Origin: a virus
Direction: 5' to 3' (one strand)
IMG/VR virus record: IMGVR_UViG_3300047673_000120
Span: 1 to 35,063 of that record
Length of the DNA stretch: 35,063 nt
The position numbers were made by a program, and so were the translations under genes. The notes below the pieces were generated by a model that did no database searches, was not told where the DNA came from, and saw only the letters and a program-made list of their open reading frames with translations. Every line of letters begins with the position of its first letter. Within the stretch, counting starts at the first letter, position 1. This document shows positions 6,765 through 19,812 of the stretch, in pieces.

Positions 6765-7546
6765 AGCAACCCCTCGCCCTTCAGAACTTCCGCGGCTTCA
6801 TCGATGGTCGCGCAATGCATCGTGTTCGGACTGAGGTTGACCCTCTCCGGCTCCAAAAGGATGATTCGATGCTTAACGCTCTCCTGATTCCAAATGTTGA
6901 ATGTAGGCCAACTAGGGCCCGTGCTGACCATCAGGATTGTGTGGCAATAAAGACTTAGTCCGCCAATTTGCGTCACAGAATATCCGAAGCGTTTCGTACT
7001 CTGAAGATTCTTCGGGAGATCATCTGTTACAACGACTTTGAAACCTTTTGACGCAATACCGTTCGCCAGAATCGCCAATGCGTATTCATCATATCTTTGA
7101 AACTGCCCTGATCCCGGCGGGCTGTTAATTACTAGGACCTCGCAGTCAGTAATTCGGCTTGGACCGAAGCAGGTTTGAATCGCCGGATAATCGAACAGCA
7201 TATCCTTCGCGCATTTAATCGGATTCTCGACGTTCATCCTATCCGACAGATACGGAAACCACGCTTCCACATGGAACTTTACAAAGTCGAGTCTGTCCGG
7301 ATGCGAATACCAGAATTGCTTATCTCCCCGCCAAGCATTGATTGAATCACTCGGAGTCGTGTAGTTAAAGTCCTTTAGCTCGACGTTGGGAACATCAGCA
7401 ACCACGTCCTGAAGCTGTTTCAGGTATTGCCATTGCGCGGCGTGAACGAACTGACGATCAGGATTTGCGAGCGCGACTTTGCGAAGGAAATGCAGATGCA
7501 CAAGATTGTCGCCAAGGTGATAGGCGTTGTGCGTTCTGATTATCAT
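6761..7546 (-). CDS. GT-B glycosyltransferase, family-9-like (about 261 aa)
   Basis: The N-terminal MIIRTHNAYHLGDNLVHLHF is the GxGDxL-like loop typical of heptosyltransferase-type (GT9) GT-B enzymes. A C-terminal STGPSWP segment fits the donor-binding region of that fold. I place the start at the ATG at 7546 because it overlaps the stop of the zinc-ribbon gene (ATGA); a longer frame would need a TTG at 7594. It likely adds a sugar from a nucleotide donor. It is one of four glycosyltransferase-like proteins in the cassette. Confidence 0.75.
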   Translation of the reverse strand: MIIRTHNAYHLGDNLVHLHFLRKVALANPDRQFVHAAQWQYLKQLQDVVADVPNVELKDFNYTTPSDSINAWRGDKQFWYSHPDRLDFVKFHVEAWFPYLSDRMNVENPIKCAKDMLFDYPAIQTCFGPSRITDCEVLVINSPPGSGQFQRYDEYALAILANGIASKGFKVVVTDDLPKNLQSTKRFGYSVTQIGGLSLYCHTILMVSTGPSWPTFNIWNQESVKHRIILLEPERVNLSPNTMHCATIDEAAEVLKGEGLL

Positions 7547-7692
7547 AAGTCTGACATCTTCTCTATGCTTACGACTTTGCCGCAACGTGCGCAAAAAGAT
7601 AACGAGAATACCTGAGTGAATTGGCTAGACCTGCGAACTGGGATGTGTCCGCAAAAAACGCACGCTAACCGGCGTAGCAAGAAATCGATCAT
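7543..7692 (-). CDS. Small zinc-ribbon protein, first gene of the sugar cassette (49 aa)
   Basis: Reading the region upstream of the GT9-like gene shows an ATG at 7692 and a frame ending in a TGA that overlaps the GT9 start. The product has two CxxC pairs, CVFC and CARC, separated by about 25 residues, which is a zinc-ribbon layout. Its function is unknown; regulatory or structural roles are both possible. It is the first gene after the terminator at 7744-7777, so the cassette promoter should lie at about 7693-7745. I see no convincing -35/-10 pair there. Confidence 0.7.
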   Translation of the reverse strand: MIDFLLRRLACVFCGHIPVRRSSQFTQVFSLSFCARCGKVVSIEKMSDL

Positions 7693-7743
7693 CTGGTCTG
7701 CATCTGGTATTACCGCTTTAACGCATGAATTTCATCATGGCAA

Positions 7744-7777
7744 GAAAAAAAGCGCGAAGTCGTTAAACCTCGCGCTT
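7744..7777 (-). terminator. Rho-independent terminator closing the head operon
   Basis: On the minus strand a 10-bp stem (7768-7777 pairing with 7750-7759, one G-U pair, arms AAGCGCGAGG and CTTCGCGCTT) with an 8-base loop is followed by an uninterrupted T run (7751-7745). It sits after the 44-residue gene and before the sugar cassette, so it separates head gene transcription from the cassette. Confidence 0.9.
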
Positions 7778-7802
7778 GTTCGCCCCGGTATGGCAAAGAA
7801 AA

Positions 7803-7937
7803 TTAGTTGGCAGGTTGAACCGGTGGTGGGTTAGGTTGTGGTGTCGGCGGAAGTTGTGTAGCTGGCGAAGGCTTTGGAGCAGGTTTCGGTTTTGCTTTGC
7901 CGTGGATAACCTTAGCCGCTGCTTTTTTCTTCGGCAT
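7803..7937 (-). CDS. Small proline/lysine-rich protein (44 aa)
   Basis: An ATG at 7937 opens a frame ending in TAA at 7803-7805, giving MPKKKAAAKVIHGKAKPKPA followed by a proline-rich tail. It is the last gene of the head operon, 4 bases after the 141-residue structural gene and 25 bases before the terminator. I do not recognise a family. The basic, disordered composition would suit a scaffold-like or DNA-contacting virion peptide; this is a guess. Confidence 0.6.
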   Translation of the reverse strand: MPKKKAAAKVIHGKAKPKPAPKPSPATQLPPTPQPNPPPVQPAN

Positions 7938-7941
7938 AAAC

Positions 7942-8367
7942 CTACGAGCTGTATTTCTTCTGCCCGATGACCCAGCAATCGATTGCTGAATTCGCCGTGG
8001 CTGATCCAGTGATAAGCCAGGTAAGATAGAGAAACTTGTTCGGTCCCGCGGTCGCCCCTGTCGCGCCGAATGCGCTCGAACGCAGATCGATGTTGGCGAC
8101 GTTGTTCGCTGCAGTCGTGGAAAAGTTGGGCAGGTTTAGGACCCAGTTATTAGCGTTGGAAACGTTCGTGTCAGGCCCCGCTTTCAACGATGGCACGATA
8201 ACCGTTCCCCCTACGCCCGTCCCGCAGGTCGTAAGAACCGTGAGGTTGCCCTCGTAATCAGCAACGTTTAAACCGGCCGAGCCGGAATTCGTGTTGATAT
8301 TGGTTACGTTCTGGAGCTGCGAAATGGTTAACGCGCCCGTATAATCGACTGCTGCTGTTGCTGCCAT
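7942..8367 (-). CDS. Putative capsid decoration or minor head protein (141 aa)
   Basis: A small, alanine/asparagine/threonine-rich, all-beta looking protein without lysine-rich regions until its end (GQKKYSS). It lies two genes after the capsid protein, where lambda-like phages place their decoration protein (gpD). A purine-rich AAAGGAAAC lies 7-15 bases before the ATG, one of the better ribosome-binding sites in the window, as expected for an abundant virion protein. No clear homology motif was recognised. Confidence 0.5.
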   Translation of the reverse strand: MAATAAVDYTGALTISQLQNVTNINTNSGSAGLNVADYEGNLTVLTTCGTGVGGTVIVPSLKAGPDTNVSNANNWVLNLPNFSTTAANNVANIDLRSSAFGATGATAGPNKFLYLTWLITGSATANSAIDCWVIGQKKYSS

Positions 8368-15435: not shown

Positions 15436-15986
15436 TTGAAGCGCGTCACGATTAGACCGTCGTGATTGATTCCACGCATGACCTCTTGTGCTTCACGCTC
15501 GCGGATGACTTCAGCCTGTAAACGGGTCCGCAATGCGATCAGTTCGGTCACCTGATAGCGCGTATAGCTGACATTATTGACCGAAACGCTCTGGAATCCA
15601 CCCGTAGTAAGCTGTGTGATTGCCGTGTTGACGTTATCCAGCATCGTTTGCGCTGTGCTGGCGGCTTGGGTCTGCGAAAGGTCTGGTAAGACGTTCAGAA
15701 CTCCGGTCTTAGCCGTCGCGCGCTGCCCGGAAGCCCGCTCGGTTGTGTATATTGCGAACATATACCTACCCGAGACCTCAAGTGTTGGATTCAGCGTGAA
15801 TAGGAAATCTACGCTGCTATTCGTGACATTCGTTGCATTTGTCGTGTAAGGTGCGCTGCCGGGAATCTGCAAAAGATACTGCGCGGACCATTGGCTATTC
15901 GGAAACTCGCTAAAGCTCTCCGTGAACAGGTAAGTCCCTCCCTGTTCGATCAATTCGGGCGCACCCGTAGCGGTTGGAACTGCCAT
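15432..15986 (-). CDS. gpW-like head-tail joining protein with an extra N-terminal beta domain (184 aa)
   Basis: Residues about 110-184 have a helix, a two-strand hairpin and a second helix (TMLDNVNTAITQL, FQSVSVNNVSYTRYQ, VTELIALRTRLQAEVIRE). This matches the layout of lambda gpW (68 residues), a head completion protein. Residues 1-105 form an additional beta-rich, immunoglobulin-like region (GGTYLFTESFSEFPNSQWSA), absent from lambda. Gene order TerL, this gene, portal equals lambda A-W-B, which supports the assignment. The rightward Mom island separates it from TerL. No Shine-Dalgarno sequence is visible. Confidence 0.65.
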   Translation of the reverse strand: MAVPTATGAPELIEQGGTYLFTESFSEFPNSQWSAQYLLQIPGSAPYTTNATNVTNSSVDFLFTLNPTLEVSGRYMFAIYTTERASGQRATAKTGVLNVLPDLSQTQAASTAQTMLDNVNTAITQLTTGGFQSVSVNNVSYTRYQVTELIALRTRLQAEVIREREAQEVMRGINHDGLIVTRFK

Positions 15987-16068
15987 GCAATCAATTTAGG
16001 GTGTCAATTGGATCAAATTTGCTATTTACCCAGCAATCAATCGCCGTGCCAACTATCTAAAACCGTAG

Positions 16069-16090
16069 AAAATAAAGTTGCGTTTATTTT
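16069..16090. repeat. AT-rich perfect inverted repeat in the divergent intergenic region
   Basis: AAAATAAA (16069-16076) and TTTATTTT (16083-16090) form a perfect 8-bp palindrome around a 6-base centre (GTTGCG), 12 bases before a TTGACA. A direct repeat GCGTTTAT occurs at 16080-16087 and 16113-16120. It could be an operator for either diverging unit or a small hairpin. Nothing else is seen in this 149-base gap (15987-16135) besides the promoter candidate. Confidence 0.6.
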
Positions 16091-16101
16091 CGCATCATCT
16101 C

Positions 16102-16135
16102 TTGACATATAAGCGTTTATCTATCAAAGTGCGGT
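16102..16135 (+). promoter_or_regulatory. Candidate promoter for the rightward Mom/tRNA island
   Basis: A consensus -35 hexamer TTGACA is at 16102-16107. TATCAA (16122-16127, spacer 14) is a weak -10 candidate, so the spacing is poor. The first ATG follows at 16136. Since the island is oriented against all surrounding genes it needs its own promoter, and this is the only plausible position. Confidence 0.4.
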
Positions 16136-16420
16136 ATGAAAAACAAACCCGAAATCATCAGCAAAGCAGAATACGATAATCACTCCTGGTCAGCGGACGA
16201 TATGTGGCCCACCGATGGACGCATTGACCCGAACGCGGGCGAGCGCCTTGGTTATATGCAGATCAAGAACGATAACCCGCACATGACCTCATTCACGGTC
16301 GGATATAACATCGAGAACGGGATCGCACATGCAATCGTAAGCGGGTTTTCACCGAAGTTCGGTAACTGCAGAGCAGATTATTACTTCAAGAATCGCCAGT
16401 GGGTTCTTGGCGCAAATTGA
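16136..16420 (+). CDS. Small protein of unknown function, first gene of the Mom island (94 aa)
   Basis: Soluble, mixed-charge protein beginning MKNKPEIISKAEYDNHSWSA and ending FKNRQWVLGAN. The second half has alternating strands (MTSFTVGYNIENGIAHAIVSG) and could be a small alpha/beta domain. I do not recognise a family. It precedes the 46-residue and Mom-like genes on the same strand with a 3-base gap to the next frame, so they are probably co-transcribed. A partner or regulator of the modification system is possible, by position only. Confidence 0.7.
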   Translation: MKNKPEIISKAEYDNHSWSADDMWPTDGRIDPNAGERLGYMQIKNDNPHMTSFTVGYNIENGIAHAIVSGFSPKFGNCRADYYFKNRQWVLGAN

Positions 16421-16423
16421 CCT

Positions 16424-16564
16424 GTGAATAAGCACGCTTCGATTCTGGGACGATTAGGCAAGGGTAAGCCTAAAACCTACACACAAGCTGAACTGGAGCG
16501 GCGACGAGCGCGTCTGGCGCTCGTCCGAAAACGCAGATGGCTGAAGCGGCAGATTCCTTTATGA
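16424..16564 (+). CDS. Small highly basic protein (46 aa, GTG start)
   Basis: A GTG at 16424 opens a frame to TGA at 16562-16564. The product begins VNKHASILGRLGKGKPKTYT and continues into a helix dense in arginine (ELERRRARLALVRKRRWLKRQ). It fills the gap between the two longer genes, and its stop overlaps the ATG of the Mom-like gene (ATGA at 16561), which supports both. It has no cysteines, so it is not a Com-like zinc finger. RNA or DNA binding is likely from charge alone. Confidence 0.6.
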   Translation: MNKHASILGRLGKGKPKTYTQAELERRRARLALVRKRRWLKRQIPL

Positions 16565-17268
16565 AATGCCATCAGCGAATCATTCGGGAACGCAAATCCT
16601 TGGAGGATGGTAGCGATGGGTTGTTTGGTGCATTCTGGAAAGATTTGGACACGGACATAAAGAAGGCAGAACTGCGCGAGGTTAGCTTGAGGACCGCTGC
16701 TGTGATTATCGAGGAGTACGAATATCTCGGTGTAATGTCAGGCGCAGCAATGAAGGCTTATGGCATTTTCTGGGGTGCTTGCTGTGGAGGTGTCGTAGTT
16801 TTTGGAGTAGTTCATCCAAATTCAGTAGCAGAAAGCGTAATCCTTCCACCGTATTCCGAAAAGGTGATCCAGTTAGCCCGCGGAGCTTGTGTTCATTGGG
16901 CGCATCCGCACTCCGCCAGTAAACTTATCTCGTTCGCTTTGCGAGAAATTGAAAAAGACGGTTGGCGCATCGTAATTGCCTATTCCGACCCAGACGCAGG
17001 AGAAATAGGGACAGTTTACCAGGCGACGAATTGGTTGTATTGCGGATTGACCGCAAAGCGCCCAGATTATTTTAGGAACGGTGAGCGAATAACTGGTCAT
17101 GTTGGAAAAATCACTGAGGAAATGACTATTGCCCCAAGAACCCGAAAAGGGAGATATATTTTTATCTTGGGTAACAAAAAGGATCAACGCGAAATCAGAA
17201 ATCGACTTTTATGGAAATCTCAACCATATCCAAAACGTGCGGCAGAGGTGTCAGAGGTGACACGCTGA
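16561..17268 (+). CDS. mom-like: Mom-like DNA-modifying GNAT-fold protein (about 235 aa)
   Basis: The core carries AYGIFWGACCGGVVVFGVV, then QLARGACVHWAHPHSASKLI, then IAYSDPDAGEIGTVYQATNW. These match the pattern of Mom-family proteins (phage Mu Mom and phage/prophage relatives), which have a GNAT fold and modify adenine N6 in DNA to resist restriction. The known Mu product is a glycinamide adduct of deoxyadenosine. I prefer the ATG at 16561 because it overlaps the upstream stop; an ATG at 16537 adds 8 residues. The last 30 bases overlap a tRNA-Gly-like gene (17239-17310). No Com-like zinc-finger activator is present. Confidence 0.82.
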   Translation: MKCHQRIIRERKSLEDGSDGLFGAFWKDLDTDIKKAELREVSLRTAAVIIEEYEYLGVMSGAAMKAYGIFWGACCGGVVVFGVVHPNSVAESVILPPYSEKVIQLARGACVHWAHPHSASKLISFALREIEKDGWRIVIAYSDPDAGEIGTVYQATNWLYCGLTAKRPDYFRNGERITGHVGKITEEMTIAPRTRKGRYIFILGNKKDQREIRNRLLWKSQPYPKRAAEVSEVTR

Positions 17269-17310
17269 ACGTCCAGTTCAGAAAGTCAGGTTCGATCCCT
17301 GACTGCCGCT
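17239..17310 (+). tRNA. tRNA-Gly(UCC)-like gene overlapping the mom-like gene
   Basis: The 72 bases fold as a complete cloverleaf with only Watson-Crick pairs. The acceptor is 7 bp (GCGGCAG/CTGCCGC), the D arm 5 bp with G18-G19 in the loop, the anticodon arm 5 bp with UCC at 17272-17274, and the T arm 5 bp with loop TTCGATC. The discriminator is U73 and no CCA is encoded. The E. coli glycine identity set is present: G1-C72, C2-G71, G3-C70, C35, C36, U73. Standard decoding and core bases are lost: position 33 is G instead of U, position 8 is A, position 14 is C, and C32-G38 can pair. It overlaps the last 30 bases of the Mom-like gene and 2 bases of the TerL stop on the other strand. It may serve outside translation. 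Confidence 0.85.
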
Positions 17311-19246
17311 AAACCTTACCGAATCCAGCCATCCATTTGCTGCCCATCCGGTTCATTCTGACAGGCGGAATTGGTAAATTGTGGTCTGGACCGGGATGAT
17401 TCAAAGGAGTTTCGTCATCTCCTGAGAACTCTTTTGCGAGCTTTTCGTAGTTCGGACGGTAGATTTGCTCAGCAGCGTTAGCGTAAACTTCGGCATCGAG
17501 CGGCTCATTGCGGTCGTCGCTTGATTTCTTGAAGAAAAACCGGTGAAAGTTGCCATCCCTACCCCGTTGCATGACCGATTCCTCGACGGTCAACCCCTTG
17601 AAATAGCCTTCCGTAAAACTGGAGGTGTCTGGAAAGTGCATATAACCCTGCGCGGCGGGATCGTTAATCTCGAGCTGCTGGTAAATGACGTCCTTTGCCT
17701 CATGCGTTCCAACCTCCCAGACTAATGCCGGCGGAATGCCTCGTTTTGTCGGCTTCTTTGGGATGATCGGCTTAGAAATCGTAGTTGCTCCCTCGCAAGC
17801 GTAGATTCGAAGCCGTTGCATCTTGCGAGTAAACGCAAACACCTCGTCAGGTCGAAACCGCGAGTCAAAAAGACCGATTGAAGGGTGAATCCACTTACCG
17901 CAGGGATGTTTCCACGCTACGTTTTGGAAGACTGCGGCGAGTTTCTCCCAGAATTCCGCTTGGAGGGGCGAGCCACGTACCACTCGATAATCGATTGCCC
18001 AGGATTGCTTGAGATTACCCGAATAGCCCCAGCCTTTGAATTTGATTTCGGCGCGGTTGGACTGAAGATCCGCGCCAAAGCTGATAAAGACCACTTCCGC
18101 GGGCAAGAGATCTCGAGGGTCGTAGTGTTCACGACGCTTGTAGAGGACAGTGTGTTCGATTTTCTGGAGGTGTTCGGGTTCATAGCTTTCGGCATCGCGG
18201 GTATTTACCAAGACGCGCCGCGCGCGCTCCGGATTATCGGCCTGTTCGACTGCGATTTCTTCCAGGGCAAGCATTTGCAGGAATCCGCCGGGATATTTTT
18301 GTCGATCAACAGGATGCGGCCACAGTAGCGCATTAGCATGGAATCCGGCGATTCCCTTAAAATCTGCGGTGGCGTTCCATTTACCGGCCCGCGCCATTTG
18401 ATTTCTTGCCAGTTCACCGTGGTTTTCATGGCAGATTGGACACTGGAGTCGGGCTAATTCTGTTTGCTCACGGTCGTAGCGCAAGTCTTTTCTGTGCATC
18501 ACCCACGGGTCGCCACACTTAGAGCAATGCACTTCCCAGACTCGCTTATCCGACAAATCGTATTTGCTATCGATGTTAGATTGGCCTTTTAATGATGGGT
18601 ATGAGCAGTAGACCTGGATCGTGTCTGGATATTCACTCCCTCGAACAGCGAATTGCCGCAGCTGGTCGCCTTCGTCAGATTCAGCTATTGCGATGGCATC
18701 GATTTCATCAGCATAAAGGAAGTTGCCTTTGGCACGTCGAAAATCTCCTGGGACGTTTGCGCCAAACATTGAGATATATCCGCCGGGGAAAATCTTAGAG
18801 AGAATCGTGTTATTCGCCAGTCGGCGGCCGCGGCCGTCTTGCAGAACACCCTGTAAACATTCCGTAGGATCGACCAGCTCTCCCATCAGATGTTTCTTGC
18901 TCCACTCCTCGGAGTCGCCAATCTTCGGCCACATGACGAGGATCTTGCGCGGGGCTTCCGCGATGCAGTAACCGATTGCCCCGAGAACCGTCATCGTTTT
19001 GGTCAACCTAGAGGCCATCTTGAACACGACTTCCCGATTGCGCGGGTTGAAGATTTCGGTGAACATCTCGCGTTGCGGAGGAAAGAAATCGAACGTGAAT
19101 CGCTTTGTCGATCCGTGGTCACCTGGCATCCTCAGTTTCTTCTCCGCGAATTCCTCCGGAGACATCCGATGCCATCGCGCGAAGTTGGCGATTAAGAGTT
19201 TCGCTACGGCTGCGCGATAGGAAGCGTAGGAAACTGGATCAGTCAT
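17309..19246 (-). CDS. Terminase large subunit, lambda GpA-like (645 aa)
   Basis: Family features appear in order: EVVFKMASRLTKTMTVLGAIGY (ATPase P-loop region of the GpA type), ILVMWPKIGDSEEW, NFLYADEIDAI (Walker B), then a zinc-ribbon-like CSKCGDPW/CPICHENHG. GFHANALLWPH and ISFGADLQSNRAEIKFKGWGYS (start of the nuclease domain, aspartate D384) follow. Length equals lambda GpA (641). It cuts and translocates phage DNA into the head together with the small subunit. It starts with an ATGA overlap to the MT-A70 gene. Two bases of its stop overlap the end of the rightward tRNA gene. Confidence 0.95.
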   Translation of the reverse strand: MTDPVSYASYRAAVAKLLIANFARWHRMSPEEFAEKKLRMPGDHGSTKRFTFDFFPPQREMFTEIFNPRNREVVFKMASRLTKTMTVLGAIGYCIAEAPRKILVMWPKIGDSEEWSKKHLMGELVDPTECLQGVLQDGRGRRLANNTILSKIFPGGYISMFGANVPGDFRRAKGNFLYADEIDAIAIAESDEGDQLRQFAVRGSEYPDTIQVYCSYPSLKGQSNIDSKYDLSDKRVWEVHCSKCGDPWVMHRKDLRYDREQTELARLQCPICHENHGELARNQMARAGKWNATADFKGIAGFHANALLWPHPVDRQKYPGGFLQMLALEEIAVEQADNPERARRVLVNTRDAESYEPEHLQKIEHTVLYKRREHYDPRDLLPAEVVFISFGADLQSNRAEIKFKGWGYSGNLKQSWAIDYRVVRGSPLQAEFWEKLAAVFQNVAWKHPCGKWIHPSIGLFDSRFRPDEVFAFTRKMQRLRIYACEGATTISKPIIPKKPTKRGIPPALVWEVGTHEAKDVIYQQLEINDPAAQGYMHFPDTSSFTEGYFKGLTVEESVMQRGRDGNFHRFFFKKSSDDRNEPLDAEVYANAAEQIYRPNYEKLAKEFSGDDETPLNHPGPDHNLPIPPVRMNRMGSKWMAGFGKV

Positions 19247-19812
19247 GCAAACGCGATGTGATTAAGGCATTCATTACCCCATGTTGACCACCCTAAGCGA
19301 TTGCGCCGCGCGAAAAGCTCCAAGTACTTAGGCGGCGACACGGCCTCAACCATATCGATAAAAGATTCCGGTTTTTGTGAATGCGCGCCGCGCTTGAATC
19401 TAAACCATGTCGAATCCCATCGCTGCAACCGTATGTCACGACCACGGCGAGCAAATAAAACGTGCTCGGTTGTTGGAACGTAGGCTCCGCCAAATCCTAA
19501 CCCCATTGGTTCCTTGCAACCCGTTAATAATGCTGAAGGTTTGAATCCCCACTCGCGCACAATTCGATAGGCATCCTCGATGTAAGGTCCGAACGTCCAT
19601 ACGTAGATATGTGAGTCAGGAAGAGCGAGGGTTGGAATCGGCAATGATGCGATTTCGGAAAGAGTCATCTGAATATATGGCGTAGTGCTTGGAATACCTG
19701 CCATTTTACGGATGCCTGAATCCCAATTTCCGTTGTCGCTGTGTGTGCGCGCGCCCGTCTCGGGTTTCTCCCACGGAGGGTCTGCCACGATTGTCGAGAA
19801 CTTCTCAGTCAT
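19243..19812 (-). CDS. MT-A70 family N6-adenine DNA methyltransferase (189 aa)
   Basis: DPPW at residues 11-14 is the MT-A70 catalytic motif. TTEHVLFARRG, HSQKPESFIDMVE and PPKYLELFARR follow in the family order. It likely methylates adenine in phage DNA to block restriction. Its gene lies between the small and large terminase genes, overlapping the first by 8 bases and the second by ATGA. This is an unusual position that ties the modification enzyme to packaging-time expression. Phage forms of this length are common. Confidence 0.92.
   Translation of the reverse strand: MTEKFSTIVADPPWEKPETGARTHSDNGNWDSGIRKMAGIPSTTPYIQMTLSEIASLPIPTLALPDSHIYVWTFGPYIEDAYRIVREWGFKPSALLTGCKEPMGLGFGGAYVPTTEHVLFARRGRDIRLQRWDSTWFRFKRGAHSQKPESFIDMVEAVSPPKYLELFARRNRLGWSTWGNECLNHIAFA

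Follow-up and report, generated by a model that had tools for sequence, protein, structure and literature searches.

The viral record IMGVR_UViG_3300047673_000120 of IMG/VR (35,063 nucleotides, analysed whole and called the window below) encodes a Mom-like DNA modification enzyme whose gene overlaps, on the same strand, a small RNA resembling tRNA-Gly(UCC). This RNA is likely a dedicated, phage-encoded tRNA-Gly that functions as the amino-acid donor for the neighbouring Mom. A tRNA-Gly-like RNA lies on the mom strand, mostly touching mom, at no fewer than 33 non-redundant Mom loci. The window is well supported as containing a Mom system with its own donor tRNA, a variant on the known Mom systems. 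The gene and the parts of the RNA are as follows.

16561..17268 (stop included), + strand: mom-like gene for a GNAT-fold DNA modification enzyme of 235 amino acids (Pfam, PHROG, AlphaFold2 model)
17239..17310, + strand: tRNA-Gly(UCC)-like RNA of 72 nucleotides (nt) (ARAGORN, fold, homologue, covariation)
17239..17245, + strand: 5′ acceptor strand GCGGCAG, pairing with CTGCCGC at 17303-17309 (sequence)
17248..17263, + strand: D-arm with a 5-base-pair stem GTGTC/GACAC and a 6-nt loop AGAGGT; A8 and C14 atypical (sequence, fold)
17265..17281, + strand: anticodon arm with loop CGTCCAG at 17270-17276, anticodon UCC at 17272-17274 and G33 at 17271 (ARAGORN, sequence)
17286..17302, + strand: T-arm with the canonical loop TTCGATC at 17291-17297 (sequence, fold)
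17303..17310, + strand: 3′ acceptor strand and discriminator U73 (17310); CCA is not encoded and AAA comes next (sequence)

The RNA reads GCGGCAG/AG/GUGUC AGAGGU GACAC/G/CUGAA CGUCCAG UUCAG/AAAG/UCAGG UUCGAUC CCUGA/CUGCCGC/U, and it overlaps mom by 30 nt (17239-17268, + strand), as the preliminary description of this DNA had it; the overlap comprises the last nine mom codons and the stop. That description also listed a complete glycine identity set (G1-C72, C2-G71, G3-C70, C35, C36 and U73) alongside three deviations, G33, A8 and C14, and all of these bases are read directly in the sequence; U33, U8 and A14, the bases of a translational tRNA, are thus absent. C14 is able to pair with G21, which gives the D-stem its five base pairs, and the 15-48 Levitt pair is absent (A15/G48). 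The predicted fold has a minimum free energy of -35 kcal/mol (z -4.5), a value reached by 0 of 200 shuffles. Checks of 17239-17310 with tRNA-finding tools divided: ARAGORN calls a tRNA-Gly(tcc) on the + strand, the sole tRNA called in the record, while the generic Rfam tRNA model RF00005 leaves the RNA unreported at its gathering score and up to E 10, a silence that marks it as an atypical tRNA.

The protein, judged from its sequence and modelled structure, is a member of the Mom family, in line with the GNAT-type assignment made earlier. It matches the Pfam Mom family PF25680 at E 8.8e-25 (88 bits against a curated cut-off of 27.1) and PHROG 1384, 'Mom-like DNA modification protein', at E 6.1e-29. 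An AlphaFold2 model built from 35 relatives has a predicted local distance difference test score (pLDDT) of 90, the main poorly ordered stretch being the C-terminal tail, including the part encoded within the RNA. The top structural match is the Mom crystal structure of phage Mu, 8bv8 (Foldseek E 6e-15; for 8bv8_A, VIA Z 18.6, 182 aligned, 3.3 Å), followed by a GNAT acetyltransferase (Z 13.9); FemX- and TacT-like chains are absent among the structural matches listed, which is no argument against relatedness. The two Mom proteins thus share family and fold, and R107, S120, D143 and Y153 of the window protein align with R101, S114, D139 and Y149 of Mu, the Arg, Ser, Asp and Tyr being invariant in all 41 aligned sequences, Mu included. 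The PDB entry of Mu Mom calls its S124A crystal construct inactive, and window S120, equivalent to S114 in the 231-residue Mu record, would correspond to that Ser124 in the 241-residue numbering if the 10-residue offset implied by the 8bv8 chain range, which ends at 241, is applied. The longest mom open reading frame (ORF) runs from 16537 to 17268 (+ strand, 243 amino acids); ATG 16561 is the likelier start than 16537 because it forms an ATGA overlap with the stop of a preceding 46-amino-acid ORF and gives an N-terminus common to relatives. The start at 16136 given in the preliminary description belongs to a separate ORF of 94 amino acids and not to mom.

The nearest Mom relative in IMG/VR, encoded on contig L002 (63% identical), has a 72-nt RNA in the equivalent place (L002:3682-3753). 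Aligned without gaps, the two RNAs have many stem differences, yet 97.7% of cells are paired; eight pairs have both partners replaced, whereas slid pairings give 0 or 1 such pairs. The UCC anticodon and U73 are common to the two RNAs, and L002 in addition encodes CCA. The L002 RNA has a normal U33 and the T-loop GGCAGUU; the oddities of the two RNAs are not alike, which points to separate ways of departing from a translational tRNA. Owing to that T-loop the L002 RNA was spotted only by reading the sequence. Default ARAGORN called no RNA in the first 80 Mom relatives, and relaxed settings (-ps85, -ps70) gave thousands of false calls and were dropped. A second Mom relative, L003 (59% identical), has no such RNA.

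A first covariance model, made from the window and L002 RNAs, found three more mom-linked RNAs (L051, E 7.5e-5 in 409 kb; L186, 8e-8; L187, 2e-4), and a five-sequence model added four (L334, L321, L268 and L282; E 1.6e-9 to 1.4e-7, 460 kb). The RNA overlaps the 3′ end of mom in the window, L002, L051 and L282, follows mom in L187, and precedes it in L186, L268, L321 and L334. As a model-free check, both strands of 85 non-redundant Mom loci, retrieved through the protein alone and totalling 484 kb, were scanned for glycine-type cloverleafs. Eight were found, all on the mom strand, seven of them no more than 70 nt from mom and the eighth 555 nt away, and there were none elsewhere in the 484 kb; L051, missed by this stricter scan, is a ninth carrier, so that 9 of the 85 loci have the RNA, in every case on the mom strand. 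On a tree of 87 Mom proteins the nine carriers need eight state changes, seven of them forced by starred branches, and the pairing of RNA and mom has therefore been gained or lost repeatedly. Three other matches were set aside as ordinary tRNAs: covariance-model matches in L220 (tRNA-His) and in phage Melnitz (L580:497-567, which reads as tRNA-Trp), and a BLAST match in Pseudoalteromonas phage J2-1 (L160:4993-5066). The J2-1 gene resembles the linked RNAs in its cloverleaf, UCC anticodon and U73 CCA, but is a normal tRNA-Gly with normal loops, in a 16-tRNA cluster and with no adjoining Mom gene.

The linkage is also recovered from the side of the RNA. Viral contigs were scanned with the 3′ half alone, GGTGMAANNCCN{6,7}CCGCTCCA, using neither Mom nor the anticodon. 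Among the 121 matches listed and scored, 101 fold into a complete cloverleaf whose anticodon loop contains CC, and 50 of these have a Mom in the fetched stretch, on the same strand in all 50 cases and within 150 nt in 42; the counts include near-copies. The same scan of bacterial and archaeal genomes gave 35 cloverleafs among the matches listed, only one with Mom (1 among 122 places listed), on an acidobacterial metagenome-assembled genome (MAG), L548. Many of the Mom-free genome cloverleafs listed are from Staphylococcus species, in up to three copies. Side observations from these contigs concern the arrangement of RNA and mom. In L340, mom (7149-7838) is flanked by two identical tRNA-Gly-like RNAs (7077-7148 and 8130-8201), which would fit a unit that can be copied or mobilised as a cassette. 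In L345, L428 and L350 some mom frames read through the 3′ half of the upstream RNA (GEDGGAIPTSPLQ), and the RNA thus adjoins mom or extends into its 5′ end. GUGC-type tRNA-Gly genes also occur outside Staphylococcus (L458, L533, L540 and L542), some on records titled as candidate-phylum or Patescibacteria MAGs. In Synechococcus phage DSL-LC03 (L579, 828-1998) the Mom-like gene overlaps an annotated type II restriction endonuclease gene, which suggests a phage-borne pair of modification and restriction.

One carrier is a cultured phage. Psychrobacter phage vB_PmaS_Y8A (OQ059336.1) was published as having one mom and no tRNA genes (PMC10434257). Its 'hypothetical protein' WBF05279.1 is a second Mom (PF25680, E 1.8e-55; identity with Mu Mom 38.5% across 88% of its length), and two tandem tRNA-Gly-like RNAs lie directly downstream of its gene, at about 7786-7923 of the record. 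Their acceptors have 7 base pairs (GCGUGUA, GCGUAUA), their loops read GUUCCCC and their T-loops are of the GUGC type; U73 and CCA are present, and a D-arm is not evident. The two Mom-family genes lie at 39393-40157 and 7125-7778 of OQ059336.1, the RNA-linked one being the 'hypothetical' one, and a ParB/sulfiredoxin-domain gene stands just ahead of it; Microbacterium phages likewise annotate a ParB-like gene at Mom. The 87-protein tree scored both divergent Y8A Moms as non-carriers, although one is a carrier, a scoring that is of no help to the count. Ten other cultured Mom loci, Mu included, have no member of the RNA family within about 1.5 kb. Absence of linked tRNAs from Mom neighbourhoods had been named beforehand as an outcome that would refute a donor RNA; that outcome was not seen, the searches having found the RNA on the mom strand at the 33 or more loci given above.

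Across 33 non-redundant Mom-linked RNAs, the features that are kept and those that vary fall into two sets. All 33 start with GCG and 32 have CC in the anticodon loop. Pairs 1-72 (G-C) and 2-71 (C-G) are invariant in 35 of 35 distinct family rows, and U73 is conserved. The anticodon loop has 6 or 8 nt in 14 of the 33, and base 33 in the 19 seven-nt loops is U in ten, G in five, C in three and A in one. The commoner oddities, which the window copy lacks, are G55 (GUGC or GUGA in place of GTPsiC), a bulged T-stem and a short or missing D-arm. As 24 of the 33 were picked by T-loop, CCGCU and CCA, frequencies of those features are biased; among the nine RNAs found without feature selection, G55 is present in seven and CCA is encoded in six. 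In a 36-RNA alignment 97.6% of cells pair, and cells with changes at both partners number 209, compared with 18 to 38 for slid pairings; the structure is favoured by the fit of the alignment to the covariance model. The features that drift are those needed by the ribosome, EF-Tu and the tRNA elbow, and an RNA that has drifted from these needs would stay out of translation. The elements that are kept are those read by bacterial glycyl-tRNA synthetase (PMC9976931). By its sequences, the RNA family as a whole appears to have slipped from translational constraints, in ways that differ between members. The loss of U33, on which the earlier suggestion of an RNA that looks unable to decode partly leaned, is seen in the window copy, with its G33, but is not a hallmark of the family, U33 being kept in 10 of the 19 seven-nt loops.

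These features bear on one rival explanation, in which the phage has an ordinary tRNA-Gly as a supplement to host translation, placed beside mom by chance or for expression. Phages often carry tRNAs, the L334 RNA is nearly canonical, and the window RNA combines a UCC anticodon and an intact glycine identity set with a canonical T-loop. Set against this, it is the only tRNA in the record, has G33, A8 and C14 and no 15-48 pair, and is invisible to RF00005; among its relatives the anticodon loop may have 6 or 8 nt, base 55 may be G, the T-stem may be bulged or the D-arm may be missing; and the linkage to mom recurs across the family, always on the mom strand. An ordinary tRNA-Gly is thus an improbable account of the RNA.

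A second explanation, also improbable and a little more so, is that the RNA is a tRNA-shaped processing or regulatory element of the mom mRNA, at which RNase P cutting at G1 limits Mom translation, with no donor role. The overlap with the 3′ end of mom in the window, L002, L051 and L282, where a cut at G1 would remove the mom stop, and the disorder of the overlapped Mom tail in the model are consistent with such an element. The RNA lies upstream of mom in L186, L268 and L321, however, and processing alone does not explain C35 and C36, U73 or the encoded CCA (six of nine members found without CCA selection). Alternatively, the RNA could be a decoy or replacement for host tRNA-Gly when defences cut or modify it, such as anticodon nucleases or TacT-like acetylation. 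TacT acts on Gly-tRNA-Gly via U73 and G71 (PMC9976931), and the bases of the anticodon persist where features needed for decoding have drifted, but the tight linkage to mom is left unexplained and an intact acceptor identity set would be needless if the anticodon alone were the bait, making a decoy very unlikely. That the RNA is what is left of an integration site (attP within a tRNA gene), or folds so by chance, is scarcely credible: temperate phages often attach at tRNA genes, but the RNA is a complete, conserved cloverleaf with compensatory changes, placed between mom and the terminase gene, and contigs of widely differing phages have it next to mom.

The preferred explanation is that the RNA is the glycyl donor for Mom. 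The known base made by Mu Mom is N6-carbamoylmethyl (glycinamide) adenine. The RNA would be made from the mom transcript, and the host would add CCA where it is not encoded and charge the RNA by its glycyl-tRNA synthetase via the intact identity set. Mom would then transfer the glycyl group onto adenine N6 of the phage DNA, and on chemical grounds the resulting glycyl amide could become the glycinamide base through a Smiles-type rearrangement, the alpha-amino group taking the place of the amide at C6. The odd anticodon loop or T-arm would keep the RNA out of translation and away from EF-Tu, leaving a private glycyl-tRNA pool for Mom late in infection. In the window, RNase P cutting at G1 would remove the mom stop codon, and a given transcript may thus be used as the message for mom or as the precursor of the tRNA. 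A 2025 meeting report states that adenosine hypermodification in Mu depends on tRNA-Gly for transfer of the glycyl group (PMC12908700). The recurrent same-strand linkage and this report are independent of each other, and both support the earlier proposal of a Mom fed by glycyl-tRNA from a non-translational tRNA that the phage itself supplies. Mu differs in having no RNA beside mom and must therefore use host tRNA-Gly, while the window phage and its relatives would bring their own. A literature search that covered mainly open-access journals, bioRxiv excepted, turned up no account of mom-linked tRNAs in phages.

Several points weigh against a donor role. The Mu result is a single sentence in that meeting report, and for the RNA described here transcription, charging and transfer are inferred. 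About nine in ten Mom loci, Mu included, lack such an RNA within about 1.5-3 kb, so that Mom in general is not reliant on it. About half of the listed viral GUGC-type RNAs have no adjoining Mom. The T-loop of the window copy is canonical, and U33 is present in about half of the 7-nt loops, so that a role of the RNA in translation keeps a low probability.

Known uses of tRNA-Gly outside translation offer further comparisons. In Staphylococcus aureus, extra tRNA-Gly isoacceptors are thought to feed peptidoglycan synthesis, where an aminoacyl-tRNA-dependent transferase of the FemXAB type draws on tRNA-Gly outside translation (PMC4052509), as proposed here for Mom. There the genes belong to cells and it is peptidoglycan that receives the amino acid, and the window RNA, with its T-loop UUCGAUC, lacks the GUGC-type T-loop (G55) of the staphylococcal type. 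The 3′ half GGUGCAANNCC...CCGCUCCA is common to most of the phage RNAs and to Staphylococcus tRNA-Gly genes, which would be the known extra isoacceptors, and most phage RNAs therefore carry a mark common to a class known for non-translational use. The window RNA is supported as working like a non-translational tRNA-Gly, judging by its other features, though it lacks the T-loop mark of that class. The GNAT toxin TacT recognises glycyl-tRNA-Gly by U73 and G71 (PMC9976931), both of which the phage RNAs retain; TacT puts an acetyl group on the charged tRNA, while Mom, as proposed, would detach the glycine and attach it to DNA.

Mom may not be the sole partner of these RNAs. Beside Mom-free GUGC-type RNAs, DruA (PF14236) is found in 6 of 59 scanned neighbours, and among the matches listed 10 of 39 records carry DruA. 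In L364 a DruA gene (2-916) ends a few tens of nt before a GUGC-type RNA (943-1007), with no Mom, and the same order of DruA then RNA without Mom occurs in L358, L396, L405, L438 and L406. DruA may thus be another user of the RNA; a fold shared by Mom and DruA is not claimed, the probability in a profile comparison being under 1%. Two GUGC-type RNAs adjoin a protein with a Phage DNA Adenine Methylase-like domain (PF22555; L387:6657-7112 and L448:6980-8449), one more neighbour in the Mom-free set matches Phage GNAT-like (PF22559), and some Mom-free GUGC-type RNAs sit among further tRNA-like matches (L380, L383 and L369).

The genes around mom and the RNA in the window are the following.

16136..16420, + strand: ORF of 94 amino acids, upstream of mom and in the same direction, without a Pfam or PHROG match
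16424..16564, + strand: strongly basic ORF of 46 amino acids, its stop overlapping the mom start (ATGA) (sequence)
17309..19246, - strand: large terminase (gpA type), convergent, its stop codon overlapping the last two bases of the RNA (Pfam)

The 46-amino-acid ORF and mom are probably translationally coupled, given the overlap of their codons. Its placement recalls Com ahead of mom in Mu, yet it has no cysteines. The 94-amino-acid ORF is possibly on the mom transcript. Scans for promoters and terminators over 15900-17500 found none. The large terminase matches the Pfam families GpA_nuclease (E 8.4e-51) and GpA_ATPase (E 2.4e-46), and it adjoins a gene for an MT-A70 family methyltransferase (19243-19812, - strand, E 8.9e-16). 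With an MT-A70 methyltransferase and mom in one phage, two adenine modifications are possible.

How Mom produces its base has been a question for decades, and a tRNA-Gly donor has only lately been reported in Mu. A tRNA-Gly-like RNA beside mom in many phages constitutes independent genetic evidence for such a donor, and natural pairs of Mom and RNA, one of them in a cultured phage, are available for reconstitution. Since tRNA finders overlook most of these RNAs, phage tRNAs are undercounted, and not all phage tRNAs are present to aid translation. More tentatively, many phages may carry translation-incompetent tRNA-Gly donors for DNA-modifying enzymes, with Mom as the main partner and DruA or DAM-like proteins perhaps as further users, in a general class of tRNA-fed nucleic-acid modification. 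If the donor role is true, DNA would join protein, peptidoglycan and lipids as an end product of aminoacyl-tRNA.
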